Assembly: GCA_017460365.1 (NCBI GenBank)
Contig: JAFUBE010000002.1
Location: 1 to 33,521, forward strand
Length of the DNA: 33,521 nt
Origin: Eggerthellaceae bacterium
GTDB taxonomy: Bacteria; Actinomycetota; Coriobacteriia; Coriobacteriales; Eggerthellaceae
Reading direction: 5' to 3'
Positions 2,205 through 33,521 of this stretch are shown here, one piece after another (position 1 is the stretch's first letter; each line of letters starts with the position of its first letter). The notes beneath the pieces are model-generated. The model was given only the letters and a program-made list of their open reading frames with translations, had not been told where the DNA came from and did no database searches. A program made the translations under genes and the position numbers.

Positions 2205-3395
2205 CTAGCCGATGCCCTCCATGTACCTCTCGAAGCCTTCGGACGCGGCAGCGTCGCGGCCGGGCATCGCATGCGCGTATATGTCGGTGGTGGTGGAGGC
2301 CCGCGCATGCCCAAGCCTCTCCGCCGTCGTTTTCACATCGGCCCCCTGCGCCAGCACGATCGTCGCGTGCGTGTGGCGAAGCGTGTGGAACGTGGCCCCC
2401 TGCACGCCCAGGCAGGCGCACATGGCCCCGAACGCCTTCGACGCCGCGCTCGGGCGCAGCAGCCCGCCGTCGGGGGCGCAGCAGACGGTGGTGTCCCTGC
2501 GAACCCCGTCGAGCAGCCGTTTCTGCCATTCCAGGCACGACTTCAGCTCGGCAGCGACGGCCTTGCCGAACGCCACATGGCGCATGGACTTGCGTTTGGG
2601 CTTCGACTTCAGAAGAGGCGGCCCGCCGAGTTCCGCGACGGAGCCGCACACGTACGCGCTCATCCCCTTCGTGTCGATGTCGCGCCATCGCAGGGCGCAC
2701 GCCTCCCCGGCCCGCAGGCCCAGATGCAACGCCAGGTAAGCCGCCGTGGCCGCGCTGCGTTGCTCGGCGCGGGCGGGTTCGGTGGAGCCATCGTGCATCA
2801 CGGCGGCAAGCTCGTTGGCGACGGCCTCCAGCTCGTCCGGCTCCAGCGACCTGGCCTTGGCATCGGGCATCGGCGGCGGGGTCGCCATCATCGCGGGGTT
2901 CGCCGCCACGATGCCGTCGGTTACCCACGACTGGTAGCACCCGCGCAACAGCGCGTGCACCACACGCACGGTCGCCGGTGACAGCCCGTTGCCCCTGCGT
3001 CCCCCCGATTCGAGCAGGTGGACGTACAGGTCGTTGACGTCGGAGACCCTGACCTCGCCAGCGTCCATGCGCCCGATCGCCGGTTCGACGTACAGGGCGA
3101 GCTTGCCCCGGTAGGCGCGGGCCGTCGAGCGGTCGATCGCGCCGAGCGACTCCAGCATGTTGATTCGGTTCATGGCCATGTCCCCCAGCGCGGTGCCGCC
3201 CCCACGGCCCGCAGCAAGCTGCTGCCGGGACCACCACACGCGAGCCTGGCGGCACGCGTCCTCGTGGTCTGCGGCGGCGAAGGTCTCCGAAGGCCTTACG
3301 GCCCTGCCGGTCGAGCGGTCGGTACGCAGGTACTGCCTGGCGCGCCAGACGCCGGGGCGGACCATGCGCACATTGCACGGATCGAGCTCTTTCAC
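2205..3395 (-). CDS. second tyrosine recombinase, in the replication operon
   Basis: A 396-residue tyrosine recombinase. Residues ~1-65 resemble an arm-binding domain, ~75-170 the core-binding domain, ~185-390 the catalytic domain. Visible catalytic residues are Arg228 (GLRAGEACALRW), a Lys near 265, His337 and Arg340 (HTLRHTHAT), His363 (LGHARAS) and nucleophile Tyr373 (TTTDIYAHA), so it should be active. The start is GTG at 3395, overlapping the upstream TGA as GTGA; its TAG abuts the initiator ATG. It is transcribed with lytic/early genes and opposite to the integrase next to attP. It may resolve genome multimers, invert a DNA segment, or be an alternative integrase; the sequence alone does not say which. 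Confidence 0.93.
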   Translation of the reverse strand: MKELDPCNVRMVRPGVWRARQYLRTDRSTGRAVRPSETFAAADHEDACRQARVWWSRQQLAAGRGGGTALGDMAMNRINMLESLGAIDRSTARAYRGKLALYVEPAIGRMDAGEVRVSDVNDLYVHLLESGGRRGNGLSPATVRVVHALLRGCYQSWVTDGIVAANPAMMATPPPMPDAKARSLEPDELEAVANELAAVMHDGSTEPARAEQRSAATAAYLALHLGLRAGEACALRWRDIDTKGMSAYVCGSVAELGGPPLLKSKPKRKSMRHVAFGKAVAAELKSCLEWQKRLLDGVRRDTTVCCAPDGGLLRPSAASKAFGAMCACLGVQGATFHTLRHTHATIVLAQGADVKTTAERLGHARASTTTDIYAHAMPGRDAAASEGFERYMEGIG

Positions 3396-3719: not shown

Positions 3720-3938
3720 CTACCAGCCCAGCAGCGCGATGCGCACCTGCTCCACCACGAGCATCAGTGCAAGCGCTATCCCCAGGGCGGCCACGATCGC
3801 CCAGTCTCCGGTATCCGCGCGTCTTCCCCGCTCGCGACGCCCCGAAGGGACCCTGGGGAGGACGCGCGCATCACGCGACCCCCGAGCTGCGCGGACCGAC
3901 CGTGCGGATGCGCGGCTTTGTTCACGTTGCACGCTCAT
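3720..3938 (-). CDS. small single-pass membrane protein
   Basis: A 72-residue protein. The N-terminal ~45 residues are strongly basic (many Arg), followed by one hydrophobic segment (WAIVAALGIALALMLVV) and a short C-terminal tail. This predicts a single transmembrane helix with the basic part in the cytoplasm. The ATG at 3938 overlaps the TGA of the excisionase-like gene as ATGA. Function unknown; small membrane proteins in phage early operons sometimes block superinfection, but there is no specific evidence here. Confidence 0.65.
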   Translation of the reverse strand: MSVQREQSRASARSVRAARGSRDARVLPRVPSGRRERGRRADTGDWAIVAALGIALALMLVVEQVRIALLGW

Positions 3939-4132
3939 GGCATCCTCACTTCCTGCTTGCGCTCCAGGTACGCCTGCCACGAGGCGTGCTCGATGCGCTT
4001 CCCGGTGGCCCCCACGCGCAGGTACGCTGGCGGGTCGGCGCTGTTCAGGTACCTCATTACCTCCTTCACGCCGATGCCCGCGACCTCTGCGGCCTGCTCG
4101 GCGGTCAGGTAGTAGGGAACCAGCTCCACCAT
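3935..4132 (-). CDS. excisionase-like HTH DNA-binding protein
   Basis: A 65-residue protein starting MVELVPYYLTAEQAAEVAG. The layout is that of AlpA/Xis-type proteins: LTAEQAAEVAGIGVKEVMRYL as the winged-helix recognition motif, then the wing (YLRVGATGKRIEHASW) and WQAYLERKQ. The ATG at 4132 is chosen because AAGGAG lies six bases before it; longer frames lack such a site. It is the first gene after the structured gap at 4133-4461. It probably directs excision with one of the two recombinases or regulates the early operon. The exact partner is unknown. Confidence 0.75.
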   Translation of the reverse strand: MVELVPYYLTAEQAAEVAGIGVKEVMRYLNSADPPAYLRVGATGKRIEHASWQAYLERKQEVRMP

Positions 4133-4461
4133 TGCGACTCCTTCCGTTTTCTTGGCAGCCGCGAAGGGCATCCGCAGACGTGGTGCAGAGCAACGCTGTC
4201 TACAAGGAGCACTGATAAGGGATAGCTTTCGAACAAGGAGGAGAACCGTGGTAGGTTTCGACCACGTCGCGGATGCCCTTCGCGGATGTCAAGGTTCCCG
4301 TGCCGCCATGGCCGCTCGGGGGAGAAGCAGGGAACCCCAAGCGCCCTGCTTGGCCTTCGCAGGGGGCGGCACGGCAGTTTGGCGGGGCCTTTTAACGTCA
4401 TGCCCGGGACGGCTGGACGAAAGCCCCCCTTGCGGGCGGTTTAGCGTCATGCCCGGGACGG
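4133..4461. other. structured gene-free gap in the early operon
   Basis: About 330 bases with no convincing gene. It holds a long inverted repeat (4159-4183 against 4262-4285), a hairpin (4325-4332 with 4344-4351, AAGCAGGG/CCCTGCTT), and a direct repeat ending at the stop of the next gene (4392-4414 and 4441-4463). Two AAGGAG words on the plus strand sit inside the inverted-repeat loop, but the frames they could start are unconvincing. A regulatory leader, attenuator or recombination site is more likely than coding. Confidence 0.6.
4159..4285. repeat. long inverted repeat around a ~78-bp segment
   Basis: CCGCGAAGGGCATCCGC at 4159-4175 is matched exactly on the other strand at 4269-4285. With one single-base gap the match extends through CCACGTC to 4183 and 4262, and with mismatches a few bases outwards (TGYCAAG), about 33 bp per arm. 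The segment between is 4184-4261. In leftward RNA this would form a very stable stem ending about 20 bases before the ribosome binding site of the excisionase-like gene. In DNA it has the form of an invertible element. Confidence 0.8.
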
Positions 4462-5464: not shown

Positions 5465-5516
5465 GTCATCTCCTTCGGCCAAGGTCTCGCATGGAGCCCT
5501 CGTTTCCCTTCCATGT

Positions 5517-5548
5517 CGTCAGCTGTTGGCGTAAGTCAACAGCTGACG
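5517..5548. promoter_or_regulatory. palindrome in the early leader (possible operator)
   Basis: Perfect 12-bp arms, CGTCAGCTGTTG at 5517-5528 and its complement at 5537-5548, with an eight-base spacer. It lies between the leftward promoter and the Cro-like gene. It could be an operator or a stem in the leader RNA; no T-run follows, so a terminator is unlikely. Confidence 0.6.
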
Positions 5549-5549
5549 T

Positions 5550-5577
5550 AAGATTCATAGGGTTCCCTGTGAATCTT
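5550..5577. promoter_or_regulatory. 28-bp palindrome (possible operator)
   Basis: AAGATTCA (5550-5557) and TGAATCTT (5570-5577) enclose AGGG-TT-CCCT, giving a 28-bp sequence symmetrical except for one base pair. It lies just downstream of the leftward start point, so a bound protein would block early transcription. Confidence 0.65.
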
Positions 5578-5578
5578 T

Positions 5579-5597
5579 GTTACACGCACCGTGTAAC
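5579..5597. promoter_or_regulatory. operator GTTACACG-CAC-CGTGTAAC
   Basis: A 19-bp perfect palindrome with a three-base centre, placed at the predicted start point of the leftward promoter. Half-site words of the same kind (TTACAC at 5641-5646, GTGTAC at 5621-5626, GTGTAT at 5673-5678) occur across the region, as expected for a repressor binding several operators of unequal strength. Confidence 0.7.
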
Positions 5598-5605
5598 TGC
5601 TCGTA

Positions 5606-5633
5606 ATAATACGTCTTTGCGTGTACTTGTCAA
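5606..5633 (-). promoter_or_regulatory. leftward early promoter
   Basis: TTGACA (5633-5628) and TATTAT (5611-5606) on the minus strand, 16 bases apart: a near-consensus vegetative promoter. It drives the Cro-like gene and the early operon. The palindromes just downstream put it under repressor or Cro control. Confidence 0.85.
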
Positions 5634-5649
5634 TACCTAATTACACAAT

Positions 5650-5681
5650 TTGAAGATATTTCTACGCTGTACGTGTATAAT
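5650..5681 (+). promoter_or_regulatory. rightward repressor promoter
   Basis: A consensus TATAAT at 5676-5681 lies about 24 bases before the repressor GTG. The best upstream box is TTGAAG at 5650-5655, 20 bases away, so the promoter is probably weak or needs activation, as expected for a maintenance promoter. Confidence 0.6.
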
Positions 5682-5704
5682 GCTGCGTGTCGATAGGAGG
5701 TATC

Positions 5705-6264: not shown

Positions 6265-6936
6265 ATGGCCAAGACGGCAGTGCTTGTGGATGGAGGCTTC
6301 TATCGCAAGCGGGCGCAATGCCTATGGGGTGCGAAATCTCCGAAAAAACGTGCTCAAGAACTCAACGATTACGTATTCATGCACCTGGCGAAGAGGGACG
6401 GCGGGCAGGAGCGATTCCTGTACAGGGTTTTCTACTATGACTGCCCGCCCTTGAAGGACAAGCAGGTGTATCACCCGTTTCACGGCAAGACGATCGCATT
6501 TGGCTCCGACGAAACCTACAGGTGGGCTACCGAGTTCTTCGACCAGCTAAAGAGGATGCGCAAGTTTGCCCTGCGCTTCGGAAAACTCTCGGATTACGAC
6601 TTGGGCTACCGTCTCAACCCCAAAAAGGTCAACGCGCTCATGCGAGGAGAGATAGGCGTGGAACAGATTGTCGAGAGTGACTTCGCGCTGAGCATGAAGC
6701 AGAAAGGCGTGGATATGCGCCTAGGATTGGACATATCCTCTCTTGCGTACGAAGGCACTGTAGACCAGATCATCCTCATAGCAGGCGACAGCGACTTCGT
6801 TCCAGCCGCCAAGATGGCCAGGCGGAAGGGAATCGACTTCATACTGGACCCGATGGGGAACCACGTCCCCGACGATCTTCTGGAACACATAGACGGCATG
6901 GAGTCCATGATAGATGGTGACCCTGCGGTATGCTAA
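6265..6936 (+). CDS. NYN-domain (LabA/DUF88-like) putative ribonuclease
   Basis: A 223-residue protein with the PIN-like NYN fold. VDGGFY has the first acidic residue (Asp9), DMRLGLD gives Asp150 and Asp156, and LIAGDSDFVPAAKMARRKG supplies Asp175/Asp177 in the typical last active-site loop. Such proteins are metal-dependent RNA nucleases. AGGAGG precedes the ATG. It lies between repressor and integrase, where temperate phages carry genes expressed in the lysogen, and its base composition is less GC-rich than the structural genes. A role in host RNA control or superinfection exclusion is plausible but inferred. Confidence 0.85.
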   Translation: MAKTAVLVDGGFYRKRAQCLWGAKSPKKRAQELNDYVFMHLAKRDGGQERFLYRVFYYDCPPLKDKQVYHPFHGKTIAFGSDETYRWATEFFDQLKRMRKFALRFGKLSDYDLGYRLNPKKVNALMRGEIGVEQIVESDFALSMKQKGVDMRLGLDISSLAYEGTVDQIILIAGDSDFVPAAKMARRKGIDFILDPMGNHVPDDLLEHIDGMESMIDGDPAVC

Positions 6937-6952
6937 AGGTGGTCAGGAACCC

Positions 6953-8065
6953 ATGAGCATCAAAAAGAGAACCCTGCGGGACGGCACGACCGTCTGGGAC
7001 GTGTGCGAGTACACGGGCTTCACGCTCGACGGGAAGCGCGACCGGAAGACGGTAACGTGCTATTCCGAGAAGGCAGCGAAGGTGGAGCAGGCGAAGATCG
7101 TCGCCATGCGCGACGCCATGCGAGGCCGGTCCGGCAGGATGGATTTCGCGGCGTACGTGGAAGGCTGGTTCTGGCCGTCCAAGCGCGACCTGGCCCCCAG
7201 CACGAAAGACGGCTACAGGCGCGACCTCAAGCTTCGGCTGCTGCCAGCCTTCGGCAACATGGACATACGCGACATAGACCGGATGAGGATTCAGCGAATG
7301 GTGGACGGATGCGCCACCGAGAAGGTCGCCCGTAACGCCGTCGCCACCCTCAAGACCGTGCTCAACATGGCCAAGGGCGACGGGCTGATACTGTCCAACC
7401 CCGCCCAGGCCGCGTTCAGCTGGCCCGCGAAGGGGACGCGAAAGGCGAACCCGTTCGCGTTCACGACCTTCGCCGCCATGGGCCCGCTGTTCCGGGCGGT
7501 CGACGACTACGGGGACGAAGAGATCGAGAAGCTGGCCGTAACCGGCCTGCTCATGGGGCTGCGCCCCGAGGAAAGGTACGGGCTCGACTGGAACGACGTG
7601 GACTTCGCGAACCACGTCGTCCACGTGCACCAGGCCTACACCGCCGCTTCGGCGGAGTCGGGGGGAACGGTCCTCCGGAAGACCAAGACGGACCTGTCGA
7701 CCAGGGACGTGCCCATGCCGCCCAACGCGGAGAAGCGGCTCAAGAGGATGCGGCGCAAGGACGGGGCCCTGGCCGTGGGCGCGTTCCTGCCGGGCGGGCG
7801 GGTCGCAAGGACCAACCCGTCGGTGGCCAGAAGGCACTGGGAGAAGTTCATGGACTGGTGCGAGAGCAACGACCGGGGCGTGCCGCGCATCACGCTCGAG
7901 AACCTAAGGCACAGCTTCGCAACAAGCTACCTCCATGCAGGGGGCAACGTGGAGGACCTGTCCAGGATCCTCGGACACAGCGACATCAACACCACCTACA
8001 GGCGCTACGTGAGGCCGGGCTTCGACGACCTGCGCGCGGGCATGGAAGTCGTGTCCGCCGGATAG
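6953..8065 (+). CDS. int: tyrosine integrase adjacent to attP
   Basis: A 370-residue integrase. Residues ~1-55 look like an arm-binding domain, ~62-155 the SAM-like core-binding domain, ~175-365 the catalytic domain. Catalytic residues: Arg204 (GLRPEERYGLDW), Lys245 region (RKTKTDLSTRDVPM), Arg319 in ENLRHSFAT, His342 (LGHSD) and Tyr352 (TTYRRYV). The first His of the usual HxxR box is Glu316 here, which is unusual. I prefer the ATG at 6953 to the GTG at 6914, which lies inside the NYN gene. A terminator and attP follow immediately. It should integrate the phage into a tRNA-Ser gene. Confidence 0.93.
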   Translation: MSIKKRTLRDGTTVWDVCEYTGFTLDGKRDRKTVTCYSEKAAKVEQAKIVAMRDAMRGRSGRMDFAAYVEGWFWPSKRDLAPSTKDGYRRDLKLRLLPAFGNMDIRDIDRMRIQRMVDGCATEKVARNAVATLKTVLNMAKGDGLILSNPAQAAFSWPAKGTRKANPFAFTTFAAMGPLFRAVDDYGDEEIEKLAVTGLLMGLRPEERYGLDWNDVDFANHVVHVHQAYTAASAESGGTVLRKTKTDLSTRDVPMPPNAEKRLKRMRRKDGALAVGAFLPGGRVARTNPSVARRHWEKFMDWCESNDRGVPRITLENLRHSFATSYLHAGGNVEDLSRILGHSDINTTYRRYVRPGFDDLRAGMEVVSAG

Positions 8066-8179
8066 CCCAGGCCGCCCTGGCGGGCCAGGATTCCGTTTTA
8101 TGCAGGTTTATGGAGAAATATGCAACATATGACGAACAGATGAGTTGATGTTTTCCCTGTTCAGATAGGTAGCCCTGAA

Positions 8180-8205
8180 GGGTTCGAATCCCCAGCTCTC
8201 CGCCA
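8180..8205 (+). other. tRNA-Ser 3' end, attP core
   Basis: GGGTTCGAATCCCCA is a T-loop with its 3' stem strand, followed by GCTCTCC (acceptor 3' strand), G and CCA. The acceptor implies a 5' end GGAGAGC, typical of tRNA-Ser. The bases left of 8180 do not pair as a T-stem (AAGGG against CCCCA), so no intact tRNA is present. It is the duplicated 3' end carried by the phage for integration. Confidence 0.8.
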
Positions 8206-8210
8206 GGACG

Positions 8211-8255
8211 TTTTTACCGCCTGACCAACGTTTTCCCAGGTCAGGCGGTATTTTT
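8211..8255 (+). terminator. strong terminator after the tRNA 3' end
   Basis: ACCGCCTGACC (8216-8226) and GGTCAGGCGGT (8239-8249) form a perfect 11-bp stem followed by ATTTTTAT on the plus strand. It ends the integrase transcript, and after integration it would supply a terminator to the reconstituted tRNA-Ser gene. On the minus strand A residues follow the stem, so it is not bidirectional. Confidence 0.85.
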
Positions 8256-8437
8256 ATCAGATTTCAAAAATGCATAAAACGGGGCCGAAACTGCATAAAA
8301 CGGCATATTTCGGCATATTTCGGCATGGGTTTAACAGATGATTAACAGATAAACGGTGCCTTTTCGGATGGTTCTTCAAGGCCGAAAACCGCCCGGCTTG
8401 CGCACCGCCCAAGGGAAGCGGAAAACGTGGCCGAGGA

Positions 8438-30012: not shown

Positions 30013-31447
30013 CGGACGCCTTCGGGATGTCCACCGACATGAGCGAGTCGAGCACGGACCGTGCCGCCTTGCGGTCGGTCTCGCTGCGGATGCGCCTGAT
30101 GTCGGCGGGGTCTGCGCCCTGCATCTCCCAGTAGACCTCGGTGCCGGCGAAGCCCTCCACGTCGTGGGCCCACTTGGTGCCGGCGTCGGCCCTCTGCGCG
30201 GGGCTGTAGATCATCGGGTCGGCGAACTTGGCCACCACGCCCTTCTGGGATTCGCTCAGCTGGTCGGTCCCCTTGTTCTCCGCCACGGCCATGGCCATCA
30301 GCGCCACCCGCTCCAGGCTCTTGCGGTTGGAGCGGTTCATGGCGGCTGCGATGTTGCAGATGTCCTCTCTCGAAGCGCCGATGGCCTCGGCGGAAGACGG
30401 GTTGTCCTGCACGATGCCAAGGCTGTTGAGCGGCACGCCGGTGGCGCCGCTGAACATGGTCGCGTAGCAGCGGATGAGGTCGATGTAGGGCTGGGGGCTG
30501 GCGGCTGCGAGCTGCCCGAACGTGGGCGCGCCGTGGTCCTCGTCGCCCACGGCCAGCACCAGCGCTCCGATGTAGGTGGACCACTTGTCCTTCTTGAACT
30601 CGTTGAAGTTGTCCTCGGTGAGACCCAGCAGGTACTTCTGCGGGTGCGCATAGAACTCCGCGCTCACGGCCATGTCGCGCATAACGCGCACGCACGCGTC
30701 GGTCAGGCGTATGACGTCCTTGCTCACGCGGCTCTGGCCCAGGGGCTTGTCGCCGTTGGCGTCGAAGGTGAACGCCTCCATCATCGGCCGGTCGAGCGCG
30801 GTGCGCTCGGTCCCGTCGCAAACCCAATGCCCGCTGTCCAGGCGGCGCAGCAGCGTGACCAGGCCCGGCTCGTGCAGGTTCACGCGCACCGGCACCTTGC
30901 GGTTTCCGCTCCAGGGCGTCCTGCGCGAGGCGGCCACCACGAAGCCGGCGCCAATGCGGTCGGCCCCTTCGTCCCAGTCCATGGCGCAGTTCTCGGCGCT
31001 GTGGAAGCGCACGATGACGCGCCCGGCGTGCTTGCCGACGGTGGCGGCCATGCACCCGTGTATGAGCTCGCTCGACTTGTGGCGGTCGTAGGCGTCGGCG
31101 ATGGCGTTGTCTCGCGCAATTGCGACAAGGTTGGCGTCCTCGGAGCCGTCCTCGAAGCGGAACGCCTTGAACACGGAACGTTCCGCGACACTCGAAACCG
31201 CCTTGTGCGGCCAGTTGCACGCCTCGTCGGTGCGCACGGTCTTGGGCATCGTGTCGATGCCGATGCCCTTGACGGTCATGTTGCCGTCGTAGTAGGCGCG
31301 CCGCTTCGAATTGTCGGCCATGACGTCGCTGTACACCAGCATCAGCTCCTGGAGCCTGTCCCTTTGCGCGGGCCAGAGCCCGTCGGCGTTCAGGATGCCG
31401 GAGAAGTCGCTCGGCCCATGGCTCCCTTTCTCCCAGATCTCGCTCAT
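30005..31447 (-). CDS. portal protein
   Basis: A 480-residue portal protein of the SPP1 gp6-like group. Recognisable parts are the N-terminal MLVYSDVMADNSKRRAYYDG, the wing-like AVSSVAERSVFKAFRFED, and the stem/crown helices near 330-400 with GVPLNSLGIVQDNPSSAEAI and ICNIAAAMNRSNRKSLERV. Twelve copies form the DNA gate at one capsid vertex. The gene overlaps TerL by four bases (ATGA type) and MuF by eight. Confidence 0.93.
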   Translation of the reverse strand: MSEIWEKGSHGPSDFSGILNADGLWPAQRDRLQELMLVYSDVMADNSKRRAYYDGNMTVKGIGIDTMPKTVRTDEACNWPHKAVSSVAERSVFKAFRFEDGSEDANLVAIARDNAIADAYDRHKSSELIHGCMAATVGKHAGRVIVRFHSAENCAMDWDEGADRIGAGFVVAASRRTPWSGNRKVPVRVNLHEPGLVTLLRRLDSGHWVCDGTERTALDRPMMEAFTFDANGDKPLGQSRVSKDVIRLTDACVRVMRDMAVSAEFYAHPQKYLLGLTEDNFNEFKKDKWSTYIGALVLAVGDEDHGAPTFGQLAAASPQPYIDLIRCYATMFSGATGVPLNSLGIVQDNPSSAEAIGASREDICNIAAAMNRSNRKSLERVALMAMAVAENKGTDQLSESQKGVVAKFADPMIYSPAQRADAGTKWAHDVEGFAGTEVYWEMQGADPADIRRIRSETDRKAARSVLDSLMSVDIPKASDG

Positions 31448-32958
31448 CCGATAAGCTGCTTTCTACTCGGGTCCCTCTTGGTTGTCACGACCGCCCACGC
31501 GGCGGCGAACGCGCTCTCTATCGCGCAGCTGTCGCCGCCCAGGCCGTAGCCGTCGCTTCCTATGCGCCGCTTCACTGCGGCCTTGGCGGACGCGGAGAGC
31601 ACCGCGTCGCCGTTGTGCGTCATGCGCCCCTCGGCGAGCATGGTCGTGCCCATCGCGGTGGCGGTTATGGCGTCGTGCGGGGCCATCACGTGGACGGCCT
31701 TCTTCGGCAGCCCTGACCTCACGAGCGCGCCGGCGAGGTTCTCCGCGCCGATCCTTCCGTCTATGGCCACGCAGGCCACGCGGTCGCGCGCATCCACCAG
31801 CTCGTCGACGAGCCACTGGATGCCCAAGAGCGTGTCCTCGGCGTGCATAAGCTCCACGTGCACGGAATCCGCCGAACGGGGCCTTCCGCGCGAGAGCAGG
31901 GCCGCCGAAACGCAGAGCTGCAGGCCGTCGGGCGCGAACTTCACGCCCACCGCCATCTTGTCGAAGCCCTCCATGGGGTCTGCGCCCTCCTCCTGCTCCG
32001 GCACCTCCACGGCGGCGGCTTCCCACCGCTTGGCGTCGACGGCCTTGGCGCTGGCCGTCTCCGGCCACCAGCAGAGCCGCTCGATCGCGAACTTCTCTGC
32101 CGAGAGCTCCATGAGCTCGCTTTCCACGTACGACGCCAGCAGGTGCCGCCCCATGGCGGGATTGCACTCGGCCCATACGTTGCGGTCGGAAAGCGTGTCC
32201 CGCTCGATGCGCTCCACGGACCATTCGTGCCAGCAGAGCCTTCCGGCGTTCGACATAGCGTTGTTGCGCACGCGGGCGAACGGCTCGGCGTAGATGCCGT
32301 GCTCTGAAGGCGGAGTTCCCAGGTAGACCACCTGCGGGTTGCCGTGCGGCGCGGACGCGGCGGTCGACTTGGACGCGCTCTGCTGGTCGTCGGTCAGGAA
32401 TCCCGCCTCGTCGTAGACCATGACGTCGCAGGTCTGCGACCGCTTGCGCCCGGTCGAACGAGCGTTGAAGGTCACTTCGGACCCGTTCTGCAGCCGTATG
32501 GCCTGGTGGCCGTTGGTGAACCGCTCGTAGGCGACGAGCTCGTGCATCTCCGGGTGCGCCCAGGTCTCGGGCGGCTCGCGGTCGTCGCCGAACACTTCGA
32601 GGAGGCGGCTGAACACGACCAGGGACGACTCGACGGTGTGGCCCGAGTAGGCTATGACCTCGCCGGCGCCGCAGTTGCCGAAGAGCATCCCGTACAGGAT
32701 CCGCGCGGCCACAACCTCGGTCTTGCCGTTCTGGCGCGGCACCAGCAGCCCGCACGTGGTGCAGGCGTAGCGTCCCTCTTCGTCCTCGGCGAGCCAGCAG
32801 GCCAGCACGTCGCGCTGCCAGTCCTGCAGCTCGACCAGGTAGGCGGCGGCCAGGTCGCACGCGTCCTCGAGGGGGAACTCCCACGAGTAGTCTCCGCTGG
32901 GGACCACCCTAAGCCTGGGCGGTCGCTCTACGCCCGGCGCGTCTCGAAGCGATGACAT
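31444..32958 (-). CDS. terL: terminase large subunit
   Basis: A 504-residue DNA-packaging motor. Walker A is LLVPRQNGKTE (~71-81) and Walker B DVMVYDEAG (~178-186). RSTGRKRSQT just before may hold the arginine/coupling loop. The C-terminal half has the nuclease fold, with a candidate metal-binding Asp in VACVAIDGRIG (~400). It cuts concatemers and pumps DNA into the head. The ATG lies inside the end of terS (50-base overlap) with GGAGGT eleven bases upstream. Confidence 0.96.
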   Translation of the reverse strand: MSSLRDAPGVERPPRLRVVPSGDYSWEFPLEDACDLAAAYLVELQDWQRDVLACWLAEDEEGRYACTTCGLLVPRQNGKTEVVAARILYGMLFGNCGAGEVIAYSGHTVESSLVVFSRLLEVFGDDREPPETWAHPEMHELVAYERFTNGHQAIRLQNGSEVTFNARSTGRKRSQTCDVMVYDEAGFLTDDQQSASKSTAASAPHGNPQVVYLGTPPSEHGIYAEPFARVRNNAMSNAGRLCWHEWSVERIERDTLSDRNVWAECNPAMGRHLLASYVESELMELSAEKFAIERLCWWPETASAKAVDAKRWEAAAVEVPEQEEGADPMEGFDKMAVGVKFAPDGLQLCVSAALLSRGRPRSADSVHVELMHAEDTLLGIQWLVDELVDARDRVACVAIDGRIGAENLAGALVRSGLPKKAVHVMAPHDAITATAMGTTMLAEGRMTHNGDAVLSASAKAAVKRRIGSDGYGLGGDSCAIESAFAAAWAVVTTKRDPSRKQLIG

Positions 32959-33376
32959 CGAAGCTGGTCACCTCCGCCCCTTTGCCCTGCGGCTTGCCGC
33001 CGTCGCGGACCTCCTCTATGCGCGCCCCGACCTCGATCATCCGCTTGGCCAGGGCTGCGGTGTCCCGGGCGCTGGTCGTGGCGTCGATGCGCTCCGCGAG
33101 CACGTCGCGCAGCGTTTCGAGCACCTTCTGCTCGTCGCCGGACCTGGCCGCCTCGGCCATGGTCTTGGGCCGCGAATCGGCCCCGCGCCTGCCGTGCCCC
33201 ATGCGCGCGGGCGCGTCGGGGCACTGCCCCTCCCGCAGTCCGAGCTTGGTCACGCGGTGGCTCACGCCGGTGCGGCTGCGGCCCAGGTGCCGGGCTATCT
33301 CGGCAGGCCCCATGTCGGGCCAGCTGCCGCGTATGAACTGGTCTTCGGCTTCCGAGAACGGCGTCTGCCATGCCAT
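32909..33376 (-). CDS. terS: terminase small subunit
   Basis: A 155-residue protein starting MAWQTPFSEAEDQFIRG. The N-terminal domain is a helix-turn-helix (PAEIARHLGRSRTGVSHRVT), expected to bind the packaging site. The centre (~75-125) is helical, for ring formation (KVLETLRDVLAERIDATTSA), and the C-terminus is basic. The ATG at 33376 follows AAAGGA; longer starts lack a site. It recognises the start of packaging and controls TerL. Just upstream are a GC-rich hairpin and a repeat pair that may be part of cos/pac. Confidence 0.9.
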   Translation of the reverse strand: MAWQTPFSEAEDQFIRGSWPDMGPAEIARHLGRSRTGVSHRVTKLGLREGQCPDAPARMGHGRRGADSRPKTMAEAARSGDEQKVLETLRDVLAERIDATTSARDTAALAKRMIEVGARIEEVRDGGKPQGKGAEVTSFDVIASRRAGRRATAQA

Positions 33377-33521
33377 GGGCCATCCTTTCGGGTCGGGCGG
33401 CCCCAAAGCCGGGCGGCAGCCGCCCGTCCCAGGGACCGTTTATGCACTTTCCTTGGCGTTTTATGCAATTCGGAGGGGTAGAGAACAGGGCGGCGTTGTC
33501 CAGCGGGAAGCAGGTAGGGGG
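33377..33521. promoter_or_regulatory. terS upstream region: hairpin and repeat pair
   Basis: CGGGCGGC (33394-33401) pairs with GCCGCCCG (33419-33426). Further right, the minus strand carries TGCATAAAACG (33467-33457) and TGCATAAACGG (33446-33436), 21 bases apart, like the pair in attP. The same two words could also be read as a weak leftward promoter (TTGCAT, 18 bases, CATAAA). Position ahead of terS, near the window edge, suits a packaging site or late promoter. Confidence 0.55.

Follow-up and report, generated by a model that had tools for sequence, protein, structure and literature searches.

Why does a temperate phage of a gut bacterium carry, just upstream of its small terminase gene, a pair of repeats that matches those at its own attachment site 25 kb away? 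The window (the whole stretch of DNA analysed) is one entire contig, C738, of 33,521 bp, from a fragmented assembly of 4.5 Mb in 1,031 contigs. Its layout was that of a temperate phage, whose left part holds early genes together with a regulator pair; in the minus-strand late operon, terL (31444-32958), encoding the large terminase subunit, and terS (32909-33406; PHROG 1459, with an alternative ATG start at 33383), encoding the small subunit, lie at the right edge.

Integrase 1 (6914-8065, plus strand; 383 aa), the owner of the adjacent attP, contains Phage_integrase and SAM-like domains and was closest among solved structures to the Tn1549 integrase (6en0). An N-terminal arm-binding domain is present in integrases of the IntTn916 subgroup (PMC8138268). 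The start of the integrase gene is overlapped by a gene for an NYN-domain protein, a putative nuclease (6265-6936). The early operon encodes a further tyrosine recombinase, recombinase 2 (2205-3395, minus strand), and upstream of it a small excisionase-like protein (3935-4171, minus strand) with weak matches to PHROG 66 and 668 and a structure model of low confidence (pLDDT 55); G025 and G077 have related ORFs directly upstream of their recombinase 2. A second early-operon tyrosine recombinase recurred in related prophages of the same host family (G025, G077, G132, G067, G102, G076, G108 and G137). In those with a located terL it lay about 5-11 kb from this gene, towards the early genes, and in most of the prophages it was accompanied by a separate terminal integrase.

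Repeat units at attP and upstream of terS

A matched bipartite element at attP and upstream of terS had been reported in a preliminary description of this DNA, and it was present as described. The pattern TGCATAAAACG-N10-TGCATAAA occurred in two places, 8271-8299 on the plus strand and 33467-33439 on the minus strand, with a 21-bp register in both. Exact matches to TGCATAAAACG were found at 8271-8281 and 8292-8302 (plus strand) and at 8104-8094 and 33467-33457 (minus strand). The last of these is the first unit of the terS pair (33457-33467, minus strand); the second unit, TGCATAAACGG (33436-33446, minus strand), lies 21 bp from the first and lacks one A that its attP counterpart has; the bracketed A of the preliminary description had correctly implied this. 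An AAA stands in phase at the centre of both pairs (GGGGCCGAAAC at attP, GCCAAGGAAAG at terS). The terS block consists of two strong units flanking a weak one and is non-contiguous, unlike the attP array, in which direct repeats follow one another at 10-11 bp.

The attP, at about 8090-8350, contains a larger array of units of the form [TG]GCATAWWWC, spaced 10-11 bp apart in both arms, inverted across a core formed by a tRNA 3' end and reading outward from that core in each arm. The int-proximal P arm (8095-8124, minus strand) holds three tandem 10-bp units, TGCATATTTC TCCATAAACC TGCATAAAAC, directed away from the core; what had been taken for a third single copy at 8095-8104 is in fact the outermost of these three (8124-8095). 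The P' arm (8271-8321, plus strand) holds at least four units, TGCATAAAAC, a weak GGGGCCGAAAC, TGCATAAAAC, GGCATATTTC and GGCATATTTC, of which the two copies of GGCATATTTC extend beyond the pair, at 8302-8321. The core region (8181-8205, plus strand) carries the tRNA 3' end GGTTCGAATCCCCAGCTCTCCGCCA, which recurs in G031 at the att junction next to an integrase with 77% identity (locus L009), and between the core and the P' arm lies a 12-bp perfect inverted repeat (8215-8250, plus strand), the probable int terminator.

This is the arm-site layout of tyrosine integrases, with repeats in both arms, inverted around a core and beside int. The earlier proposal that the attP copies look like integrase arm sites fits the locus, where inverted tandem arrays surround a tRNA-3'-end core and adjoin a Tn916-subgroup-like integrase. 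A second class of repeats, TTAACAGATGA TTAACAGATAA with 11-bp spacing, occupies the outer edge of P' (8331-8352, plus strand) and has a related copy at 8133-8143; it may instead be the integrase's actual arm site. The TTAACAGATGA class resembles TTGAACA repeats beside the integrase of L009.

Setting, chance expectation and conservation of the terS pair

In syntenic relatives an HNH protein is encoded just upstream of terS. What may be the last codons of an HNH gene, cut by the contig end, can be read in the window at 33461-33520 (minus strand); they would encode PLPASRWTTPPCSLPLRIA, which resembles the HNH C-termini LPTSREW and LPKSREW of relatives (LPxSREW), and the stop codon falls within the first unit of the terS pair. 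We infer that the contig end falls within the HNH gene and that the pair occupies the gap between this gene and terS, a junction that, from the known layout of such phages, we take to be the expected position of cos. In the region of the pair, neither a sigma-70-like promoter (-35/-10 hexamers, 16-18 bp spacing) nor a terminator was called, and inverted repeats were absent from 33400-33521. The contig ends 54 bp past the pair, without a closing overlap. At this distance a cos end was considered and set aside: the end apparently lies in an HNH gene, and C1017 closes by overlap and the window does not. C1017 (L160, L161), a second phage contig of the assembly, spans 38,021 bp, has ends that overlap by about 140 bp and an HNH gene at one end, and is apparently circular and complete.

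The chance expectation was assessed with a scoring matrix built from seven attP units, with tandems scored across the window. The four exact units ranked first, followed by the remaining attP units and then by the second terS unit; the two terS units scored 17.8 (first unit, first 10 bases) and 11.1. As a tandem the pair scored 28.9 bits and was the sole tandem outside attP found by the unit matrix, all others not overlapping attP scoring at chance level. Null maxima were 15.6 in 12 Markov-2 windows and, with 200 random windows each, 21.7 at GC 0.66, 32.9 at GC 0.50 and 27.8 at GC 0.44; 28.9 bits was thus reached in 1 of 600 random windows overall, which is 1 of the 200 at GC 0.50, and in none of 20,000 random 115-bp regions. 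A raw 30-mer comparison gave 41.7 for the pair against null maxima of 32.6-39.8 (25 windows each). Single 11-mers allowing two mismatches were not rare (6 observed, 2.9 expected). Given the tandem and 30-mer scores relative to their null maxima, a chance origin is unlikely, but the improbability is not extreme if AT-rich sequence is the appropriate null; the site has 44% GC in a genome of 66% GC.

For twelve phage loci, the sequence after the terminal integrase was compared with the rest of the prophage. The window scored 42.2 at terS. Among the ten syntenic prophages with a located terminase, none had att sequence upstream of terS, and their best matches in the 1.2 kb upstream of terL (19.8-26.0) were unremarkable within each prophage; these relatives are distant, with TerL identity to the window of at most 44%, and most are represented by one att arm. 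Nothing outstanding was seen in G025, which has no located terL, and the high scores in G132 came from its own duplicated att core. TerL relatives had no such repeat upstream of terS, no relatives through terS were found in viral contigs and GenBank phages, and no near-identical phages were found. Since none of the ten syntenic prophages has the att sequence there, the terS pair is, on the genomes compared, lineage-specific rather than a conserved feature, and is a single-genome observation.

Tandem 10-11 bp repeats of other sequences occupied the same place beside homologues of integrase 1: ATTGGCT in G003, CCCCAAA in G077, TTGAACA in L009 and GGCTGATTTC/TCTAGC in G025. Such repeats, each with its own sequence, were also found beside int in L010 and L011; the stretch examined in the homologues L006 and L014 had no tandem repeats. 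Own-sequence repeats beside each homologue would be the pattern expected of integrase-specific arm sites, a pattern that does not in itself identify the binder.

The pair pattern was also sought elsewhere. The exact 11-mer had four copies in the 4.5-Mb assembly, all in C738, and no TGCATAAA pair was found there outside the window contig. The host order contained 29 TGCATAAA pairs at 20-22 bp, compared with 2 for the reversed-pattern control. In five genomes of one genus (L053-L057), a TGCATAAA pair at about 1501, with its units 21 bp apart, precedes a TGTTACG...CGTAACA palindrome, and both lie upstream of an apparent hydrogenase small-subunit gene. The host-order pairs look like unrelated regulation, with no matching set of sites for the window's host. 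In about 85,000 genomes the strict pattern occurred at 5 loci only, mostly tandem repeats or coding sequence. Viral contigs yielded 14 stretches with the pair pattern and 0 with the reversed pattern, and across all spacings 39 contigs, several at 11 and 20-22 bp; these pairs were not treated as a single family, since their settings ranged from unrelated hosts to coding repeats and an integrase coding region. An unrelated pair of viral contigs, L035 (3296-3324) and L037 (7862-7890), had a 21-bp TGCATAAAACG-N10-TGCATAAA pair just upstream of a terS-like gene, and L034 (8220-8248) had a 21-bp pair about 1.2 kb upstream of one; relatedness is not proven for any of the three. An ArgR box was considered for its 21-bp box periodicity and one Lachnospiraceae copy upstream of argG, and was discarded for mismatches in the second half-sites; a DnaA box was discarded for its non-conserved trailing CA.

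Candidate binders of the terS pair

As had been noted at the outset, the units do recur at terS, and integration gives no account of this second pair; it is most likely an arm-type site. Our leading, though tentative, reading is that integrase 1, the attP integrase of the phage itself, has here a lineage-specific pair of arm-type sites in an ectopic position. One protein would bind all the units, and this would be integrase 1 rather than the excisionase-like protein, its N-terminal arm-binding domain bridging arms and core via the attP units. The strong-weak-strong block at terS would copy the first three units of P' without a core-type site, so that the pair would recruit the integrase without recombination. 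The most likely effect would be transcriptional or architectural: with the integrase bound at 30-53 bp upstream of the start codon of terS, the late-operon leader, or the adjacent cos region, would be blocked or bent for as long as the integrase is abundant. The pair may in this way repress late transcription or affect cos, and a control element tied to late transcription or packaging, one of the suggestions made earlier, is possible.

Consistent with a role for integrase 1, inverted arm arrays surround the tRNA-3'-end core directly after its gene, and the confinement of the 11-mer to the phage contig is what would be expected for a phage-encoded binder. The integrative element ICEMlSym-R7A has five 10-bp integrase arm-type sites, and its integrase IntS is described as a negative autoregulator that acts on the integrase's promoter region at attP (PMC11963761). 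What counts most against integrase 1 is L009, whose arm-binding domain is largely conserved and whose single visible arm (P) has other repeats and no TGCATAAAAC. The lack of an arm-like copy upstream of terS in all ten syntenic relatives also counts against this reading, and tandem arrays at 10-11 bp would fit excisionases as well. A second recombinase site at terS, as had been proposed, was not borne out: the repeats are direct only, with no inverted core-type arms or half-sites around a 6-8 bp overlap.

Excisionases that double as regulators of the early switch are known, among them 186 Apl and P2 Cox, and excisionase sites are usually confined to one arm. The units could be operators of such a dual-purpose excisionase (recombination directionality factor), which would bind attP for excision and have as its second, regulatory region the late-operon leader rather than the early switch. 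We consider this somewhat unlikely, and an Apl/Cox-like excisionase less likely than integrase 1 as the binder. Direct repeats at attP with a spacing of one helical turn are characteristic of these factors (PMC7498355); an excisionase-like protein is encoded by the phage, two relatives have ORFs related to it upstream of their recombinase 2, and the motif is missing from L009's arm. However, the units occupy both arms, inverted around the core; a matrix scan found no copy or high-scoring cluster at the cro/cI switch region (5482 to 5687); and the excisionase-like assignment is weak, with a fold model of low confidence. Binding by Apl takes three adjacent operators, and none was seen in vitro with a '101' arrangement (PMC7498355); two strong units split by a weak one are the arrangement at terS, and this non-binding was counted against the excisionase and for integrase 1. 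Alternatively, the pair might have no function and be a relic, perhaps a recent one, or a coincidence: a short AT-rich stretch, either copied or arisen by chance. We hold this to be unlikely. The pair's absence from relatives, the comparable tandem in 1 of the 200 AT-rich random windows and the frequency of bare 11-mers with two mismatches would agree with this, but both units and the 21-bp register are kept though the spacer differs, and the site sits in a short regulatory gap, a score like its own being unmatched among the random 115-bp regions.

A host-factor site common to attP and cos, after the manner of IHF in phage lambda, which also acts at lambda attP, appears improbable. The location near the presumed cos fits, lambda cosB has an IHF site between TerS sites (PMC4669245), and the host order has its excess of TGCATAAA pairs, five of them upstream of the apparent hydrogenase gene in one genus. 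The exact 11-mer is nowhere else in the 4.5-Mb assembly, however, and for this reason a dedicated host factor, which had been among the earlier suggestions, is disfavoured; nor is there another TGCATAAA pair there, the strict pattern is as scarce across genomes as described above, and relatives from the same host family lack the pair at att and terS. Least probable is a late-promoter element, or a cosB-like site for TerS, whose likeness to the attP units is incidental. The location of the pair, in the gap that separates terS from the putative end of the HNH gene, would suit such an element, as would the pairs near terS-like genes in L035, L037 and L034, but no promoter was called in the region, TerL relatives have no such repeat there, and the identical units at attP would be left unexplained.

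Comparison with known systems

It is conceivable, although we think it unlikely, that an attP-binding protein of this phage, be it the integrase or the excisionase, has the late operon or cos cleavage under its control as well and couples integration/excision to packaging; it would then bind directly upstream of terS. We know of no described case of an attP-binding protein acting at terS. If true, a single protein would tie the integrated state of a temperate phage, or its entry into that state, to holding back the start of packaging.

Like the lambda IHF sites at attP and cosB, the units described here represent one sequence class at attP and in a terS-proximal packaging region; unlike the lambda sites, which are single bend sites, they are direct repeats in tandem, and show no sign of being a host-wide site. 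With the operators of 186 Apl and P2 Cox they share the 10-11 bp spacing of direct repeats and an occurrence at attP plus one further regulatory site, but the second site lies beside terS and not at the early switch, and its arrangement is strong-weak-strong and not contiguous. The arm-type sites of lambda, of the IntTn916 subgroup and of IntS of ICEMlSym-R7A have no counterpart of the extra pair that lies here 25 kb away beside terS, without a core. In common with those systems, the units are of the 10-bp class, several per attP, inverted around the core and beside int, and the integrase is itself Tn916-subgroup-like.
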